64,000 nucleotides of DNA from NCBI GenBank assembly GCA_018648645.1, contig JABGQS010000009.1, positions 1-64,000 on the forward strand. The letters run 5' to 3'. Position numbers and translations under genes: made by a program. Shown one piece after another: positions 47,877 through 62,374 of the stretch. The DNA comes from Clostridia bacterium (GTDB lineage Bacteria; Bacillota; Clostridia; Christensenellales; SZUA-584). Each line of letters begins with the position of its first letter. Within the stretch, counting starts at the first letter, position 1. The notes beneath the pieces are model-generated. The model did not search any database, had not been told where the DNA came from, and worked only from the letters and a program-made list of their open reading frames with translations.

Positions 47877-48767
47877 CTAAATCTGCAGCCCCGCCGCTAT
47901 AATCTCTTTTTTAACCTGCTGCATTTGCTCTGCGTTAAACGGGCGCTGCGGTGCTACGGGATACCCAATGTCAAAGCCCATCATCTCAAGAACCGCTTTG
48001 CCTGTTCTTACAACGCCGTATTTCAGCATAACCGAAATAACTTTGTTGACCGCATACTGCGCTTGCTGCGCCGCTTCGATGTCTCCGGCTCTAAAGTAGT
48101 TGTATATATCGCAGTACTTGTCGCTCATAATGTTGTACGTGCCGCCAATGCCGCCGTCCGCACCCATCATCAGCCCGCAAATCAAAGTCTCGTCCGGACC
48201 ATTGAGCATGTTGATGTCGCCGCCGTTCAGCTCTTTTAATTTTCTGAACAGATAATAGTCGCTCAAAGTATACTTCGCGCCTATTACGTTTGGAATCTCC
48301 ATCAGCTTCCCTAAAACGTCCGTCAAGTCCATACCCGCAAACGATCCCTTTGCATAAACGATCACCGGCAAATCCGTATTATCCGCGATAATTTTATAGT
48401 AGTTCACAAACTCGTCCGCGTCGTACGCATAAAAATGCGAAGGTGGCAGCGAGCTCACAGCGTCTGCGCCGGTCTTTGTCGCGTGCTTTGTCAGCTCAAT
48501 CGTGTCACCAATATTCGCCGCGCCAATGTGGTCGATAATCACGCCTTTTCCCTTGGCGTTGTCTACAGCAACTTCCGCCATGCGCATGCGTGTTTCCTTT
48601 GGAAGTGCCAATCCTTCGCCCATAGCGCCGCAGATATAAAACCCTGCCGAGCCATTATCAAAGTGCCAGTCCATCATTTTGCTCACTGTCTTTTCTTTCA
48701 ACTTCTGGTTTTCGTCAAACGGAGTCGCGATTGCAGGCATTATGCCCGTGAACTTAACATTGCTCAT
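47877..48767 (-). CDS. NanA/DapA family aldolase (paralogue 1)
   Basis: 296 residues, TIM barrel. Schiff-base Lys165 (IGAKYT) and Tyr138 (VIVY) match E. coli N-acetylneuraminate lyase numbering closely; ADGGIGGTYNIM is also NanA-like. However the GSTGE (NanA) or GTTGE (DapA) motif reads GAMGE at 47-51, and NanA Ser208 is Gly. So a lyase acting on a 2-oxo acid is likely, but sialic acid is not assured. No nan transport or epimerase genes are close. GGAG precedes the ATG. Confidence 0.86.
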   Translation of the reverse strand: MSNVKFTGIMPAIATPFDENQKLKEKTVSKMMDWHFDNGSAGFYICGAMGEGLALPKETRMRMAEVAVDNAKGKGVIIDHIGAANIGDTIELTKHATKTGADAVSSLPPSHFYAYDADEFVNYYKIIADNTDLPVIVYAKGSFAGMDLTDVLGKLMEIPNVIGAKYTLSDYYLFRKLKELNGGDINMLNGPDETLICGLMMGADGGIGGTYNIMSDKYCDIYNYFRAGDIEAAQQAQYAVNKVISVMLKYGVVRTGKAVLEMMGFDIGYPVAPQRPFNAEQMQQVKKEIIAAGLQI

Positions 48768-49826: not shown

Positions 49827-50897
49827 TCAGTATACTCGATTCCTATAATTCTTTCCATGCTTTTTGATGTCCCTCGCATACTTGCTTATCTGCTTTCCTT
49901 TTTCCCTCTTACCTTTGATAAACTCACTTTTCTCTTCTATATACTTGTTTTCCCGCATCAGCTTCAAATAGCTGTCCCATCGCTCCTGCGATATTTGACC
50001 ACTTTCCAGTGCTCGCTGCACAGCGCATCCCGGTTCGCCCATGTGCGAACAGTCGCCAAATTTGCAGTCCTCAAAATACGCTTCAATATCGCTGAACGTT
50101 TGCACAACGCCCTCCGCTGCATCCCACATCCCAAGCTCGCGCATGCCCGGTGTATCGATAACCATCGCGCCGCAACTCAGCATAACAAGCTGCCTGTGCG
50201 TTGTTGTGTGCCTGCCTTTGCTGTCGTCCTCGCGAATGTCGTTGACCGCCATCACCGTCTGCCCTTCAAGGCTGTTCACCAAGCTCGATTTGCCTACGCC
50301 GCTGCTGCCAAGAAACACAACGGTACTCCCGCGCTGCAAATACTTTTCAAGCGCATCAATGCCCTCGCCCGTCTTCGCGCTTATAGCTACAACATCCACT
50401 CCCGGCGCCATTTCGCTCGTTTCATTGACCGCCTCTTGCCAGTCCTGCGCAAGGTCGGCCTTGTTTAGCAGTATTACCGGCGTCGCACCGCTTTGCCACG
50501 CCAGCGCCAAATACCTGTCCAGCCGCTTATAGTTCAAATCGTTGTTCAGCGATGACATGATAAACACGTAATCGAAATTCGCTGCCACCACCTGCTCCAA
50601 CGGCGCTGATGGATCAGGGTCTTTTCTGACAAAGCACGACTTGCGCTTCCCCGTTTTCACAATTTGGCTGTCTCCGTGTTCGTTTAATACAACCAGCACA
50701 AAATCGCCCGCCGTCGGGAACATCTGCTCCGTCTCGTTATAATACACCCCCGGTTTCAGCTTCGCGTGCCCTGTGCCGTTCTCACTTACAATCTCAAACC
50801 TTTCTCTGTGCACCGCCGTTACTCTTGCCGGCACCGCTCCGTCAATCTCTTCCTCAAAATAGTTTGCCTTATATCCATATGCCTCAATATTACTCAT
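49827..50897 (-). CDS. rsgA: Ribosome small subunit-dependent GTPase A
   Basis: 356 residues. OB fold, then circularly permuted GTPase: NKAD (G4) before SAKTG (G5), then GSSGVGKSSL (G1) and DTPGMRE (G3), and a C-terminal zinc site with C...C-H...C (FEDCKFGDCSHMGEPGC). It proofreads late 30S maturation. TAGGAG 9 bases before the ATG. A TTGACA-like box lies just upstream, but spacing leaves little room for a leader. Confidence 0.96.
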   Translation of the reverse strand: MSNIEAYGYKANYFEEEIDGAVPARVTAVHRERFEIVSENGTGHAKLKPGVYYNETEQMFPTAGDFVLVVLNEHGDSQIVKTGKRKSCFVRKDPDPSAPLEQVVAANFDYVFIMSSLNNDLNYKRLDRYLALAWQSGATPVILLNKADLAQDWQEAVNETSEMAPGVDVVAISAKTGEGIDALEKYLQRGSTVVFLGSSGVGKSSLVNSLEGQTVMAVNDIREDDSKGRHTTTHRQLVMLSCGAMVIDTPGMRELGMWDAAEGVVQTFSDIEAYFEDCKFGDCSHMGEPGCAVQRALESGQISQERWDSYLKLMRENKYIEEKSEFIKGKREKGKQISKYARDIKKHGKNYRNRVY

Positions 50898-51056
50898 TTA
50901 TATTCTCCTATATCGTTTCGTTTACACATCTGTCAAAGTTTGCTCGCCAAACATCCATGCAAACATTTACACATTTGTTTCCTTTGCTCCATCAGCAAAG
51001 CCTATAAAGGATATCCGCGCAAATCATCTTTAATCAGCTAACAATACGATATATAC

Positions 51057-51083
51057 AAAAAGCACGGCATTCCCGCCATGCTT
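51057..51083 (-). terminator. Terminator of the 51-kb small RNA
   Basis: Minus strand AAGCATGGC pairs with GCCGTGCTT (one G-T pair), loop of 6, followed by TTTTGT. Confidence 0.85.
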
Positions 51084-51245
51084 GTCACATTATAAATATA
51101 AATGCTAATCGCAAATTGATTTTTGGGTAATGTCTTTATGCGTACACAAATTTGCTCTTGCAAACCCATGCACAGGCTTTATTAAGTTGTCAGAACTCCC
51201 ACATAGGCCACTGTTAACATAAAACACTACCTCCGTTCATTTATT
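51057..51245 (-). ncRNA. Candidate structured small RNA of about 190 nt
   Basis: Bounded by a near-perfect promoter (51252-51281) and an intrinsic terminator. The transcript folds: a long stem pairs 51218-51231 with 51126-51140 (GGTAGTGTTTTATG against CATAAAGACATTACC, one bulge and one G-T pair); inside are CCTATGT/GCATGGG enclosing an AGTT/AACT hairpin, and TTTGC-AAGA-GCAAA. It matches no riboswitch I recognise; size, own promoter and terminal pairing recall 6S-type RNA, but the sequence is not clearly 6S. An alternative is a 12-codon peptide, MLTVAYVGVLTT, starting at 51220 behind a good GGAGG. rsgA follows downstream, so a leader of rsgA is possible too. Confidence 0.6.
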
Positions 51246-51251
51246 GCCAAG

Positions 51252-51281
51252 ATTATAACACAACCACATTTGTAGTGTCAA
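51252..51281 (-). promoter_or_regulatory. Consensus promoter of the 51-kb small RNA
   Basis: Minus strand TTGACA, 18-bp spacer, TATAAT: both boxes are exact consensus. The -35 overlaps the stop of the GNAT gene at 51278, so it serves the RNA, not that gene. Confidence 0.82.
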
Positions 51282-53213: not shown

Positions 53214-54098
53214 CTAAATCTGCAGACCACACGCAATAACCTTCTTCTTTAATATTTTCAGATGCTCTTGCGAAAGGCTCTTCCCCGGAAAAACATAGCT
53301 TCCGACATCAAAGCCCATCATTTCAAGCACCGGCTTAATCGCTTTCATGCCACCAAAATCTATTAGCACTTTAATAACTCTATTTATTTTATACTGTAGA
53401 TTTTGTGCCTCGTTAATGTCACCTTTTCTATATGAATCATATAACTGACAGAACCAAGCCGCCATAATGTTGTAGGACGCACCAATTCCTCCATCCGCTC
53501 CCATAACAAGACCGCATATCAAAGTATTATCCTGCCCGTCAAAAATAAGACTCCCTTCAATCTCCTTAAGCTGCCTAAAAACATGGTAGTCATTCATAGT
53601 AAACTTCATTCCGATAACGTTAGGTATTTTCATAAGCTTTTTTGACAGCCTCACAACATCAACCCCACAAAACAATGATGTTGCATAAACGATTACCGGC
53701 AAGCTGGTATTATCAGCGATAATTTTATAATACTTGAATATTTCATCTTCACAATAAGCATAAAAGTGCGACGGAGCGAGCGAGGCAACTGCGTCGACAC
53801 CAATTTCTTCTGAGTGCCGGGTCAGCTCTAGTGTTTCTTCAATATTCGCAGCGCCAATGTGATTTATAATCTTACATTTGCCTTTAGCTTTACTAACAGC
53901 AACCTCGGCCATTTGCATTCGAATACTTTTTGGCAAAGCAAGCCCTTCTCCCATACCGCCGCAAATATAAAAACCATGAACGCCCCCCGCCATCTGCATA
54001 TCCATAAGCTCGTTGGTCACGCTTTCCTTCAGCTTTTGATTGCTGTCAAAAGGCGTTGCAATCGCTGATATAATGCCACTTAATGCTAAAGAACTCAT
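53214..54098 (-). CDS. NanA/DapA family aldolase (paralogue 2)
   Basis: 294 residues, alignable without gaps to the copy at 47877-48767 for most of its length, including the AxGLQI tail. Lys165 (IGMKFT) and Tyr138 are kept. The carboxylate motif reads GGMGE, and the NanA Asp-Glu pair DE (positions near 190) reads DN. Lower GC than paralogue 1. It starts 10 bases after the unrecognised 54109 gene, so both act together, probably on one 2-oxo acid or its derivative. Confidence 0.85.
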   Translation of the reverse strand: MSSLALSGIISAIATPFDSNQKLKESVTNELMDMQMAGGVHGFYICGGMGEGLALPKSIRMQMAEVAVSKAKGKCKIINHIGAANIEETLELTRHSEEIGVDAVASLAPSHFYAYCEDEIFKYYKIIADNTSLPVIVYATSLFCGVDVVRLSKKLMKIPNVIGMKFTMNDYHVFRQLKEIEGSLIFDGQDNTLICGLVMGADGGIGASYNIMAAWFCQLYDSYRKGDINEAQNLQYKINRVIKVLIDFGGMKAIKPVLEMMGFDVGSYVFPGKSLSQEHLKILKKKVIACGLQI

Positions 54099-58160: not shown

Positions 58161-58192
58161 AAACACAGAAATTTTGTTTGCGAGGTTTATCT

Positions 58193-59206
58193 ATGATATG
58201 TCCAAAATGCGGCAGGCTGCATAACGAGGAAGACTCATACTGTGAGCTGTGCAGAACACAGCTGATAAGAGAAACGATCACTTGTCCAAGATGTGGAGAG
58301 AAGACGGATAAGTACAGCAGGGTCTGCACAAGCTGCTTATTTAATATTAGCAAAACTGTTGAATACATTGATTGCCCAAAGTGTGGAGAAAAAACGGGCG
58401 GAAATCTTGATATTTGTTCCGTTTGCCTGTCTCGTATTGCAGGGCGGTCTGGTACACCTCTTGCCAACAAAAAATACAATAAAACCAAAAACGAAAACTC
58501 CTCAATCGCTTCAGCGCAGCCTATTAAATGCCCGAAATGCGGCAAAGTAAATGATGTTGAAAATACATACTGCGATAGCTGCAGAGCAGAGCTAAGAGGC
58601 GAGGTAGCTCCACGCATTCAAACGAGGCCTTCCTCAATATATTGCTACAAATGCGGCGCACAAAACGAGGGTGCAAATAGATTTTGCTCCGCCTGCGGTG
58701 TCGCACTAATTAGATTTTCCCAAGCGCAGCCTGCGACAGAGCACGTTTCGCCTCGCATTCAACCACGTCGCGCAACAGGGCACGTTCCGCCCCCGGTTCC
58801 GCCGCGGCCAAAGCCTGTATTACCTCCGTATATAACGGAATATGTGCTTGGACTCATCGGCTCAATGACAGGTACGATCATCTTTCTGATTCTTCTCATT
58901 ACCGGTATATATAAAGCATTGAGTTCCTATACCTTTGCCTACACAAACAGTATATATATTTTTATCTGCGCCCTGCTTGTGCTGGCGTCGTTCATTCTAG
59001 GCTACATCGGCATCTGCATGCTCAAGAGAGGCAACGGTATCGGTGGTGTACATCTGGTGATTGGCGGCGCTCTATCAATTGCCGCAATTGTTGTCGCTCC
59101 AAGTTTCGGCTGGCTAACTGTTTTATCCTTCCCTCTTCTACTAACGGGCGGTATAGTCGCGCTTGCAAGAAGGAAAACCGTTGAAGGAAACGCTGCTCAA
59201 CGCTGA
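58193..59206 (+). CDS. Multi-zinc-ribbon membrane protein
   Basis: 337 residues. At least five CxxC-CxxC units: MICPKCGRLHNEEDSYCELC, TCPRCGEKTDKYSRVCTSC, DCPKCGEKTGGNLDICSVC, KCPKCGKVNDVENTYCDSC and CYKCGAQNEGANRFCSAC. Then a Pro/Arg-rich linker and a four-helix membrane region similar to DUF4064. ATG 58193 follows GAGG by 7 bases; a TTG at 58178 would destroy it. Paralogue of the next two genes with extra ribbons. Probably a cytoplasmic sensor or scaffold at the membrane; role unknown. Confidence 0.85.
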   Translation: MICPKCGRLHNEEDSYCELCRTQLIRETITCPRCGEKTDKYSRVCTSCLFNISKTVEYIDCPKCGEKTGGNLDICSVCLSRIAGRSGTPLANKKYNKTKNENSSIASAQPIKCPKCGKVNDVENTYCDSCRAELRGEVAPRIQTRPSSIYCYKCGAQNEGANRFCSACGVALIRFSQAQPATEHVSPRIQPRRATGHVPPPVPPRPKPVLPPYITEYVLGLIGSMTGTIIFLILLITGIYKALSSYTFAYTNSIYIFICALLVLASFILGYIGICMLKRGNGIGGVHLVIGGALSIAAIVVAPSFGWLTVLSFPLLLTGGIVALARRKTVEGNAAQR

Positions 59207-59284
59207 TTCTGCTCTTCCAAAAGTGCAACGTTTACTTTTGCGATTCGCACGCTTTTCCAGCAGACCTAAGTTTATTACTAAGAA

Positions 59285-59314
59285 AATGCAAACTTCCATA
59301 TTTGTTTGCATTTA
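59285..59314 (+). terminator. Terminator-like hairpin after the 58193 gene
   Basis: A perfect 10-bp stem AAATGCAAAC/GTTTGCATTT, 10-base loop, T-poor tail. It overlaps the -35 of the next promoter. Confidence 0.55.
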
Positions 59315-59335
59315 TACATTAATTAGCGTAAACTA
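59307..59335 (+). promoter_or_regulatory. Promoter of the 59366 gene
   Basis: TTGCAT, 17-bp spacer containing AGCG, TAAACT. The bases AGCGTAAA after it recur before 60088. Confidence 0.5.
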
Positions 59336-59365
59336 TATGATATAAACGAAAAGGAGATTTGTCTT

Positions 59366-59920
59366 ATGTACTGTCCTAATTGCGGCACACCAAACGATGA
59401 CAACGGCACATTCTGTACTTCTTGCGGCTCGGCTTTTCGCAATCTAGAAGCACCGCGGCAAAACCCTGCCGAGGCACCGCCAATGCGAGCTCCATCGCAG
59501 CAGCCGATGCAGCATTCGTCAAATCAACGACCAATCACCATCGATAATAAACCCTACAAAACTGAGTTTATACTGGGTCTTATCGGCTCTATACTTGGTA
59601 TTGCAATGTTCCAAATTCTTTTTATCGGCGGAATTGTCGAGGAAACTGACTGGGGCGGCGGTGCCGCCATTATCGTCAGTAGTCTTCTTGTGCTGGCTGC
59701 GTTCATACTCGGCTTTGTCGGGGTCTCTGCGCTAAACAAAGGCAAGGGCAGCGGCGGCGTGCTGTTGGTTGTCGGCGGCGGTCTTGGTTTCATCGCCATG
59801 TTCTTTGAGATATGGATTACTTGGTCAACGCTTTTCTTCTTCCCGCTTCTGTTGGCCGGCGGTATCATGGCACTCTCAAGAAGAAAAATTGTCGAAAGAG
59901 ACTATCCACACACCTACTAA
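59366..59920 (+). CDS. Zinc-ribbon DUF4064-like membrane protein
   Basis: 184 residues. One zinc ribbon at the N-terminus (YCPNCGTPNDDNGTFCTSCG), a Pro/Gln-rich linker, and four membrane helices with KGKGSGGVLLVVGGGLGF before the last pair. Very close to the gene at 60088 in both coding and upstream sequence. AAAGGAG precedes the ATG. Own promoter and terminator. Confidence 0.85.
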   Translation: MYCPNCGTPNDDNGTFCTSCGSAFRNLEAPRQNPAEAPPMRAPSQQPMQHSSNQRPITIDNKPYKTEFILGLIGSILGIAMFQILFIGGIVEETDWGGGAAIIVSSLLVLAAFILGFVGVSALNKGKGSGGVLLVVGGGLGFIAMFFEIWITWSTLFFFPLLLAGGIMALSRRKIVERDYPHTY

Positions 59921-59944
59921 TCACAGCATATCAATGGTGACGAC

Positions 59945-59982
59945 AAGCCCGCAAGGCGATATACATTTTGCGGGCTTTTTTT
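59945..59982 (+). terminator. Terminator of the 59366 gene
   Basis: AAGCCCGCAA pairs with TTGCGGGCTT, then TTTTT. Confidence 0.9.
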
Positions 59983-60020
59983 GATTGAGTTCAACCGAAC
60001 GGCTCGCTTCTAAATTCCTG

Positions 60021-60049
60021 TTGATTTTATCCGCGAATAAGCGTAAAAT
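60021..60049 (+). promoter_or_regulatory. Promoter of the 60088 gene
   Basis: TTGATT, 17-bp spacer with AAGCG, TAAAAT; same layout as the two preceding paralogue promoters. Confidence 0.5.
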
Positions 60050-60087
60050 ATAACATATAAGAAAATAAATAAAAGGAGATTACTCTT

Positions 60088-60570
60088 ATGAATTGTCCTA
60101 ATTGCGGTACAGCAAACGAAGGTGGCGGTACTTTTTGTACATCTTGCGGAACCGAGTTTCACAACCTGGAAGCACCCGCTGCCGGCTCAGCACCTGCGGC
60201 AACCACCAAGCCTTATAAAGCAGAGGTTATCATGGGTCTCATCGGTTCAATTGTCGGTGTTGTAATTTTTCTCGTAATGCTTATTTCCGGAATTGTTCGA
60301 CTTGGCGCCTTCTACTCTTTCGGGGGCGGTCTTGCAATAACCGGCAGCATGTTCGTACTGGCTGCGTTTATCCTCGGCTTCATCGGCACCGGGCAACTTA
60401 ACAAAGGCTTAGGCAAGGGCGGTATATTGCTCACTATCGGCGGCGGTCTTGGTTTCATCGCATCGTTCATCGGCATTTGGGTAGGCTGGTCGGCGTGGTT
60501 CTTCTTCCCGCTTCTACTGGCAGCCGGCATCATGGCACTCGCCAGAAAGAGATCCGTAGAGCAAAGTTGA
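60088..60570 (+). CDS. Zinc-ribbon DUF4064-like membrane protein (paralogue)
   Basis: 160 residues. N-terminal zinc ribbon NCPNCGTANEGGGTFCTSCG, short Ala/Pro linker, then four helices (QLNKGLGKGGILLTIGGGLG). A near duplicate of the 59366 gene by eye. AAAGGAG 8 bases before the ATG. Followed by a strong terminator and an iron permease gene. Confidence 0.85.
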   Translation: MNCPNCGTANEGGGTFCTSCGTEFHNLEAPAAGSAPAATTKPYKAEVIMGLIGSIVGVVIFLVMLISGIVRLGAFYSFGGGLAITGSMFVLAAFILGFIGTGQLNKGLGKGGILLTIGGGLGFIASFIGIWVGWSAWFFFPLLLAAGIMALARKRSVEQS

Positions 60571-60610
60571 CGCAAGAACAACGCACAAAGCACATACTCT
60601 ATTAGTCAAA

Positions 60611-60648
60611 CATCACCCGTGCAGCAACAAAGCTGCGCGGGTGTTTTG
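60611..60648 (+). terminator. Terminator of the 60088 gene
   Basis: CACCCGTGCAGC pairs with GCTGCGCGGGTG (one mismatch), then TTTT. Confidence 0.88.
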
Positions 60649-60799
60649 TCTCCTGCCGATATAGTCCATTTATAATCATATTGCTATTGCGCACATTTAT
60701 CATACTTTGAACAATTTTTTACAGGACGCGATTGCAAATGCGTGGTATCTTTGCATTGTTAGCCAAAGCTAACTAATATATAAAAGGAAATTGTACGTT

Positions 60800-61636
60800 A
60801 TGGATACAGCATCATTATTACAAGGAGCCATTATCGGGTTTAGAGAGGGTCTCGAAGCCTTTCTTATCATCGCGATAATGCTTGAATACTTAAACAAGAC
60901 AAAGCAGCCGCTTTTCAAAAGAAACGTTAAGCAAGGTCTCGTAATCGGTCTGCTTGTCTCAGTCTTGTTCGGAGTCGCGCTGTTCTTTATCGCGGCGGCA
61001 ATCGGTCAAAACACCGATACTTTGGCAAAGGCTTGGGAGTCGGTTGTCAGCCTGCTTGCCATGTTACTAATCACAACCTTCATCGTTTGGATGATCAAAC
61101 ACGGTCGGCATATGGTAAGCAATATCGAACAGTCTACGCAATCCAACCTTAGCCGAAAAGGTCTCATCATACTGGCTACCGTTATGGTTGCCAGAGAGGG
61201 GGCAGAGGTCGTACTCTTCATGGTTGCCTCAACCGACAAAACATCGTATGTTCTCGGAATCGCCATCGGTTTGATAATCTCCGCAGCATTAGCGTTCTTG
61301 ATTTACAAGTCGCTGATCAAGGTCAATCTGAAGATAATCTTCAATATAACGCTTGCATACCTGATATTGCAGGCGGGTTTCCTGCTCGGATACGCCGTGC
61401 ACGAAGGTCTCTCTTTCCTAAAATCGACAGGCGTTATGCTAGAGTCAAATGCAGCGTTTACAAAGCTGTACGACTTGAAAGACACGCTGCTGGATCACAA
61501 AACGGGGCCAATCGGATTACCGCTGTACGTATTATTCGGATGGTATTCTCGTCCTGAATGGATACAGTTTGCGCTGCAATACCTATACACCTTCAGCCTT
61601 TTCGCTGTTTGGCTCAGGTACGCAAGGAAGAAATAG
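60800..61636 (+). CDS. FTR1 family iron permease
   Basis: 278 residues with about seven membrane helices. Two iron-binding REGxE motifs: REGLE at 15-19 and REGAE at 132-136, the mark of FTR1/EfeU permeases. Short form without the extracytoplasmic domains of EfeU partners. AGGAAA precedes ATG 60800; a TTG at 60791 is less likely. No efeO/efeB genes nearby. Upstream bases 60649-60799 contain no clear Fur box. Confidence 0.92.
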   Translation: MDTASLLQGAIIGFREGLEAFLIIAIMLEYLNKTKQPLFKRNVKQGLVIGLLVSVLFGVALFFIAAAIGQNTDTLAKAWESVVSLLAMLLITTFIVWMIKHGRHMVSNIEQSTQSNLSRKGLIILATVMVAREGAEVVLFMVASTDKTSYVLGIAIGLIISAALAFLIYKSLIKVNLKIIFNITLAYLILQAGFLLGYAVHEGLSFLKSTGVMLESNAAFTKLYDLKDTLLDHKTGPIGLPLYVLFGWYSRPEWIQFALQYLYTFSLFAVWLRYARKK

Positions 61637-61652
61637 CGCCCAATATGCACAT

Positions 61653-61687
61653 CAAAGCCTGCGAGCTTACATTCGCAGGCTTTTTTT
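61653..61687 (+). terminator. Terminator of the FTR1 gene
   Basis: AAGCCTGCGA pairs with TCGCAGGCTT, followed by TTTTTT. Confidence 0.92.
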
Positions 61688-61969
61688 ACTTCGCGAGCGC
61701 ATATATACCGCGCCTCACGTTCTGTCCCGACGACCAAGCTGTTTTGCCCCCTTCTACTGGTATAGACCGGTAGTTTACATACTAAATGTCCGATTCTACT
61801 CGTATTCCACGGCGCACAATCACACATACACAAATCACTTTTGCGCACATAACCCCCAACAACAACCCCTTCCCATGCCGGTATAGACCAATTTGTTTCC
61901 ACACCCACCGCTATGTTTGGCTTTGCCACTTCGGTGGTATAAATAGCTATAACGCAGAGGGAGGCAGCC
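61688..61969. other. Non-coding stretch with repeated decamer
   Basis: No gene seen. GGTATAGACC occurs twice (61759-61768 and 61880-61889), the first inside a weak hairpin. Otherwise low-complexity ACA-rich sequence; possibly decayed DNA. Confidence 0.4.
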
Positions 61970-62374
61970 ATGTACAAGCAATACAAACTCGAATTCGGTC
62001 TCGGTCTCGGCGGTGCAATCGCCGGCATACTGGCGTTCACCTACACTCTTTTGTTCACGTTTCTTTTTCTTTTTGAGTCTTCGATTGCCACAATCCCCAT
62101 CATAATCGGGCTCACCTTCATGCTCGCCGCTTTCATACTCGCATTCATCGGCGCAGCCAAGCTAAACCAAAACCAAAAAAGCGGCGGCGTATTCCTGCTT
62201 ATCTCCGCAGCCCTAACCATCGCATCCGTTGTGCTCAGCTTCGATACCGCGTGGTTTGGTCTGTTGATTATCCCACTAACGCTTGTAGCGGGTCTGCTTG
62301 CGCTCCTAAAAAAGGTTAAAACGCCCAAGGACAACACTCCCACATACGTCAACACCTTCGACGGTTTGCAATAA
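61970..62374 (+). CDS. DUF4064-like four-helix membrane protein without zinc ribbon
   Basis: 134 residues, four helices with KLNQNQKSGGVFLLISA between helices 2 and 3, like the other family members, but with no zinc ribbon; N-terminus YKQYKLEFGLGLGG. GGGAGG lies 8 bases before the ATG. Ends just before a shared terminator opposite nadE. Confidence 0.78.
   Translation: MYKQYKLEFGLGLGGAIAGILAFTYTLLFTFLFLFESSIATIPIIIGLTFMLAAFILAFIGAAKLNQNQKSGGVFLLISAALTIASVVLSFDTAWFGLLIIPLTLVAGLLALLKKVKTPKDNTPTYVNTFDGLQ

Follow-up and report, generated by a model that had tools for sequence, protein, structure and literature searches.

A probable uORF-dependent attenuator leader upstream of a second rsgA gene in a Clostridia bacterium

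The minus strand of a 64,000-nt stretch of DNA from a Clostridia bacterium (the window) carries at 51057-51281 an element that raises a simple question: does it encode a free-standing RNA, or is it the leader of the rsgA gene that follows? The preliminary description had favored a standalone structured RNA, while likening it also to 6S RNA and to a structured leader of rsgA. The anatomy that it reported was borne out. The promoter is an exact TTGACA/TATAAT pair with an 18-nt spacer (51281-51252; TTGACA at 51281-51276, TATAAT at 51257-51252) and a TG upstream of the -10 element, of the sigma-70 type. Scanning spacers of 16 to 19 nt, we observed no other 12/12 match in the 64-kb window. A GNAT gene upstream ends at 51278, so that the promoter overlaps the end of that gene. 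At the far end lies an intrinsic terminator (51057-51083) with a 10-bp stem (hairpin 51083-51060), a tetraloop and a U-run; its z-score is -3.7, and a terminator scan found one such site against 0.2 expected.

Between these signals, approximately 190 nt fold, as described, into a long end-pairing stem enclosing inner stems. The fold of 51057-51245 has a z-score of -2.9, with 0 of 200 shuffles equally stable, and extending the leader through to rsgA gives -3.8 (0 of 100). Its strongest part is P1, a 14-bp hairpin with an AAGA loop at 51142-51173 (z = -4.1); for P1 alone and for the terminator alone, 0 of 200 shuffles were as stable. The other inner stem is weak. The long stem joins a 5' arm at 51217-51231, which covers the end of a Shine-Dalgarno (SD) sequence and a start codon, to a 3' arm at 51126-51141, the anti-SD segment GCATAAAGACATTACC. 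Taken alone this stem is unexceptional: when the downstream region was shuffled, 39 of 200 versions formed an equally strong duplex with the SD region, in a test that allowed long interior loops.

Perhaps the element is a product of chance, or a functionless relic of a decayed gene or leader? A relic would fit the lack of DNA-level conservation of the window leader in relatives, where we found short chance matches only; nor did the genomes searched contain a close relative of it. Against this stand the exact promoter, an intact SD and open reading frame, and the z-scores of -3.7 to -4.1 for P1 and the terminator. We regard a relic as highly improbable; judged from its sequence, the leader looks real and functional.

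The 12-codon peptide frame noted in the preliminary description is present, with an intact SD (GGAGG, 51230-51234) and an ATG, and is well placed. This upstream open reading frame (uORF; 51182-51220) encodes MLTVAYVGVLTT and ends in the codons GTG GGA GTT CTG ACA ACT TAA, where the sole SD-like stretch is GGGAG, about 15 nt before the stop. The rsgA gene itself (49827-50897, minus strand) starts 160 nt past the terminator and is presumably the controlled gene. Its 356-aa product scores 180.9 bits against the RsgA_GTPase family PF03193, for which the Pfam cut-off is 30, and is the second RsgA of this genome, which encodes a 298-aa RsgA elsewhere. Between the terminator and rsgA we found no promoter-like site, the one at 51281-51252 being the sole such site before the gene. 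That interval does hold a possible second short frame, MCKCLHGCLASKL (50933-50974, minus strand), in which we place low confidence. In the wider surroundings, two DHDPS-family paralogues flank the rsgA region (47877-48767 and 53214-54098, minus strand), and 58178-62374 on the plus strand encodes a series of small membrane proteins that resemble one another, some of which have zinc-ribbon N termini (58178, 59366, 60088 and 61970).

These features bear directly on whether the RNA stands alone. A trans-acting small RNA, separate from an independently transcribed rsgA, would suit the exact promoter of its own, the strong terminator, the length of about 190 nt and the stable fold. However, no promoter-like site lies between the terminator and the gene; a good SD-ATG uORF lies within the RNA; its position and order equal those of uORF leaders before rsgA homologues (below); and no Rfam small-RNA family matches it. 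We consider such an RNA unlikely. The Rfam search gave no family at the cut-off, in keeping with the earlier failure to recognize one. Weak matches to MicC and STnc50 were judged to be chance, since they come largely from the terminator and the AU-rich flank. The length and the long closing stem do recall 6S RNA, but there is no Rfam 6S match, either at gathering level or with E up to 10, the stem contains an SD and start codon, and the terminator hairpin is separate; a 6S-type RNA is hardly credible here. The idea of a structured RNA that has a promoter and a terminator of its own is supported; the word standalone is not. The element is most likely the 5' leader of the rsgA mRNA, a suggestion also made at the outset and supported both by the anatomy and by homologous loci. 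Even as a leader, it should yield a terminated product of about 190 nt visible on a Northern blot.

A homologue search with the window RsgA gave 80 loci, mostly in Clostridia with some in Paenibacillaceae, and most of them carry an upstream leader of the same anatomy. The order is a strong promoter, an SD, a uORF of 9 to 13 codons, P1, an SD-pairing segment, one or two terminators, and rsgA. A representative uORF reads MTVFYEVIEP; its stop is followed by an AACtGAATA motif, then P1, then AAGTAACCTTTCGTGAATACTGTA. The succession of SD, uORF, P1, anti-SD segment and terminator was found in at least 58 leaders located by motif before rsgA homologues, and in more located with R1, which together with R2 is a covariance model of this rsgA-type uORF leader class defined in the present analysis. 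In most genomes the class motif occurs in a single copy, at rsgA. Class leaders also occur in the window's own taxonomic order, where two diverged forms, L139 and L141, are found about 1 kb upstream of rsgA. Neither the window leader nor a class leader nor the motif had a match in phages or plasmids. At gathering level, Rfam placed no leader family on 14 related loci, and within the part of the literature covered we found no paper describing the class, though RNA surveys across microbiomes, such as PMC8040213, may include it in their supplements. Many loci (L017 and L024, for example) have a second short frame between terminator 2 and rsgA that overlaps the rsgA start; its SD (GAAAGGAG) is identical to that of the first uORF, so that one anti-SD segment could choose between both.

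What is conserved in these leaders? In an alignment of 42 of them, all 8 of the 8 P1 pairs show changes on both sides. For P1 and the SD pairing taken together, the paired cells, the cells with changes on both sides and the covariation score exceeded those in 500 of 500 shuffles, which ignore relatedness, and were far above those in all slid controls, which do not. Counted position by position, the SD pairing GAAAGG/CCUUUC reaches 485 paired positions, whereas 5000 shuffles gave no more than 483. It is mostly invariant, with a few compensations such as AAAAGG/CCUUUU and AUGAAAGG/CCUUUCAU, and its covariation is therefore weak. The covariation proposed as a check of the stems is thus found in the related leaders clearly for P1 and faintly for the SD pairing. 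RNAalifold, run on our own alignment, returned no consensus.

The uORF is constrained in an unusual way. In all 73 leaders compared, the third base of the fifth codon before its stop is G; GAG stands there in 50 and GAA in none, though GAG makes up 47% of the Glu codons in the rsgA genes. This bias (p = 4e-17) and the GTG/GTA bias at the next codon (p = 4e-10) carry optimistic p-values, as related sequences are not independent. The amino acid at the fifth codon varies (E, M, K, V, G, A, T or R) while the third base is fixed, which places the constraint on the nucleotides and not on the peptide. The preliminary description had taken conservation confined to the peptide codons as a sign against a structured RNA; related leaders show the opposite, conserving third bases and P1 but not the peptide. 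The inner, SD-like uORF stretch GAGGUGAU is complementary to the 3' end of 16S rRNA. In constrained folding of some leaders (L010 and L011), this stretch pairs with the anti-SD segment when a ribosome covers the SD.

Does the window leader belong to this class? It has the class anatomy of a strong promoter, an SD and a uORF of suitable length upstream of an rsgA paralogue, and its P1 lies between the uORF and the anti-SD segment, as in the class. The stretch from SD to AUG falls in the top 0.6% of 346 gene starts when scored with the class profile. Related leaders carry AACNNAATA on or directly after the uORF stop in 66 of 86 cases; the window leader has AACTTAATA at its own stop, within the matching stretch ACAACTTAATA at 51178-51190; the motif occurs 15 times in the 128 kb of the two window strands, which sets the chance rate. 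We also aligned the window leader with class member L196, in register over 80 nt: GGTAGTGTTTTATGT is common to both, followed by TTAATAAA and GCAT.GGT, and 0 of 500 shuffles did as well. L196 is the best of 86 leaders, and with a max-statistic for the best of 86 the count was 0 of 300. An alignment with the leader of a nearer rsgA homologue, L139, was not significant (80 of 500 shuffles).

The sequence signatures of the class are another matter. The window leader has no recognizable GGUGAU in its uORF, no GGCA/UGCC in its P1 and no ACCUUUCGUGAAUAC; its uORF lacks the GGTGAT-like pattern (xxG GTR) that would begin at the fifth codon before the stop, and its PSSM score is below those of all 58 leaders. 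R1 and R2 gave it 3.5 and 3.0 bits, against chance matches of up to 18.8 bits elsewhere in the window, though the match was the best in a 701-base region and in the correct register. The top R2 match in the window, at 60070-60153 (plus strand), is a false positive, being the ribosome-binding site of a protein gene. The covariance models thus leave membership unproven, and the window leader could be either a diverged member or an analogue. In common with the class it has the gene, the promoter, the uORF with its SD, P1, a predicted SD-pairing segment, a terminator and the motif at the uORF stop; it differs in lacking the sequence signatures, scoring 3 bits, and having one terminator to the class's two. 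We lean toward descent from the conserved class over analogy, but do not count the window leader as a member.

Which genes do such leaders precede? A model search of 391 genomes of the taxonomic class gave 21 leaders with E no higher than 1e-4, and rsgA follows 15 of these. By Pfam, the genes behind the rest, and behind matches in the window's order, encode GNAT acetyltransferases, a GNAT/beta-lactamase-like fusion, an RNHCP protein, an ABC ATPase and an APH-family phosphotransferase. At L173, L174, L177, L179 and L194 the leader stands before a GNAT gene, several of them fused to a beta-lactamase-like serine hydrolase domain; these look like drug-modifying genes under the same control. In a Paenibacillaceae genome (L137:1351-1525), a second leader copy is followed by a remnant resembling the RsgA C terminus and then by an APH-family phosphotransferase gene. 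A weak model match (L180, G036:C1:644633-644759; E = 0.0036) lies before an RNHCP-domain protein. The product at L188 appeared phosphotransferase-like by eye, but the 120 residues tested had no Pfam match; that at L193 had a HAD match only, below threshold. Each of the 27 genomes examined encodes two or more RsgA proteins; one has about 300 aa, another is longer, and it is the gene for the longer protein that carries the leader.

As a set, the genes behind the leaders suggest that the response is to ribosome-targeting drugs, and we infer the antibiotic link with the acetyltransferases and phosphotransferase as putative drug modifiers. The translation genes that tetracycline raises in Streptomyces include SCO6149, an RsgA paralogue activated by WblC (PMC7157823), and in Escherichia coli loss of rsgA raises gentamicin sensitivity (PMC10295648). 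The drug-response reading fits both observations, as well as the precedent of HflXr, whose leader in Listeria monocytogenes, rli80, is a short-uORF transcription attenuator (Duval et al. 2018, PMC6310831). The occurrence of uORF leaders before GNAT, phosphotransferase and other genes points to an inducible, translation-sensing attenuator analogous to the HflXr leaders.

We conclude that the window element is probably a uORF-dependent attenuator leader of the mRNA for a second RsgA, a 30S-assembly GTPase. The strong promoter would be constitutive, with transcription from near 51245 normally giving an RNA of about 190 nt that ends at the terminator at 51057. The downstream anti-SD segment could close the SD and start codon of the uORF, enclosing P1. 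Which helices form would depend on the state of ribosomes on the uORF: whether they are free, are initiating or have been stalled by a ribosome-targeting drug, or whether functional 30S subunits are in short supply. Under translation stress the altered choice would let polymerase read on into rsgA. We infer uORF translation, translation stress as the signal and the terminator-passing step alike. In folds with a ribosome placed on the uORF start, midway along it or on its stop codon, the terminator always formed (P = 0.95 for the window leader), so that no antiterminator is predicted. Passage of the terminator might instead depend on kinetic effects, on ribosome read-through of the stop codon or on an added translational layer.

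A ribosome on the uORF might also act on rsgA translation, by freeing or hiding the rsgA ribosome-binding site. A leader of another type, without a terminator, precedes rsgA at L112 (in a genome of the same family) and at L155, L160 and L165 (in the same order). There the uORF has an SD-like end, and an anti-SD hairpin (ACGGAGGTATG/CATACCTCCGT) seems to compete for the rsgA SD as a translational switch; the kind of uORF device that acts on rsgA seems to vary between lineages. When the entire window leader is folded, a second long helix adjoins the rsgA SD, which would suit a translational attenuator. Yet the window leader has a strong terminator, absent from those four relatives, and no clear anti-SD for the rsgA SD. 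A translational attenuator is accordingly a slim prospect, slightly more so than a trans-acting RNA.

The attenuator that we favor has known counterparts. Like rli80 (PMC6310831), it puts a short uORF into the leader of a ribosome-associated GTPase homologue; rli80, however, has a 14-aa frame containing an RLR motif, an antiterminator that was both predicted and tested, and a response to 50S drugs, whereas the window leader showed no antiterminator, its gene product is RsgA (30S), and its peptide MLTVAYVGVLTT lacks the RLR motif of hflXr-type macrolide leaders. The vmlR and ermB leaders (PMC9226507, PMC8274638) are likewise drug-responsive uORF leaders that work by transcription attenuation, translation attenuation or both; their genes and leader peptides differ from those of the window element. 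SCO6149 (PMC7157823) is likewise a second RsgA gene in an antibiotic-responsive translation gene set, but it is controlled by a transcription factor (WblC/WhiB7), whereas an RNA leader is proposed for the window rsgA.

While uORF attenuators are already known as a kind, the leader class itself is absent from Rfam. A bolder reading, which we offer tentatively and hold to be doubtful as yet, is that it is a widespread undescribed class in which the 16S anti-SD and its mimic in the leader compete for the uORF SD and the inner GAGGUGAU. Shortage or poisoning of 30S subunits would then be read directly, driving the second RsgA and drug-modifying enzymes, and the class would be an RNA-based counterpart of the WblC regulon with the window leader as a strongly diverged member. 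The known cases of resistance genes under uORF attenuators mainly concern drugs that act on the large subunit. A class placed before an extra 30S-assembly GTPase, and elsewhere before acetyltransferases and a phosphotransferase, would indicate that Clostridia of gut and soil have a stress or drug response directed at the 30S subunit. If this is true, the second RsgA may be a protection factor, like HflXr.
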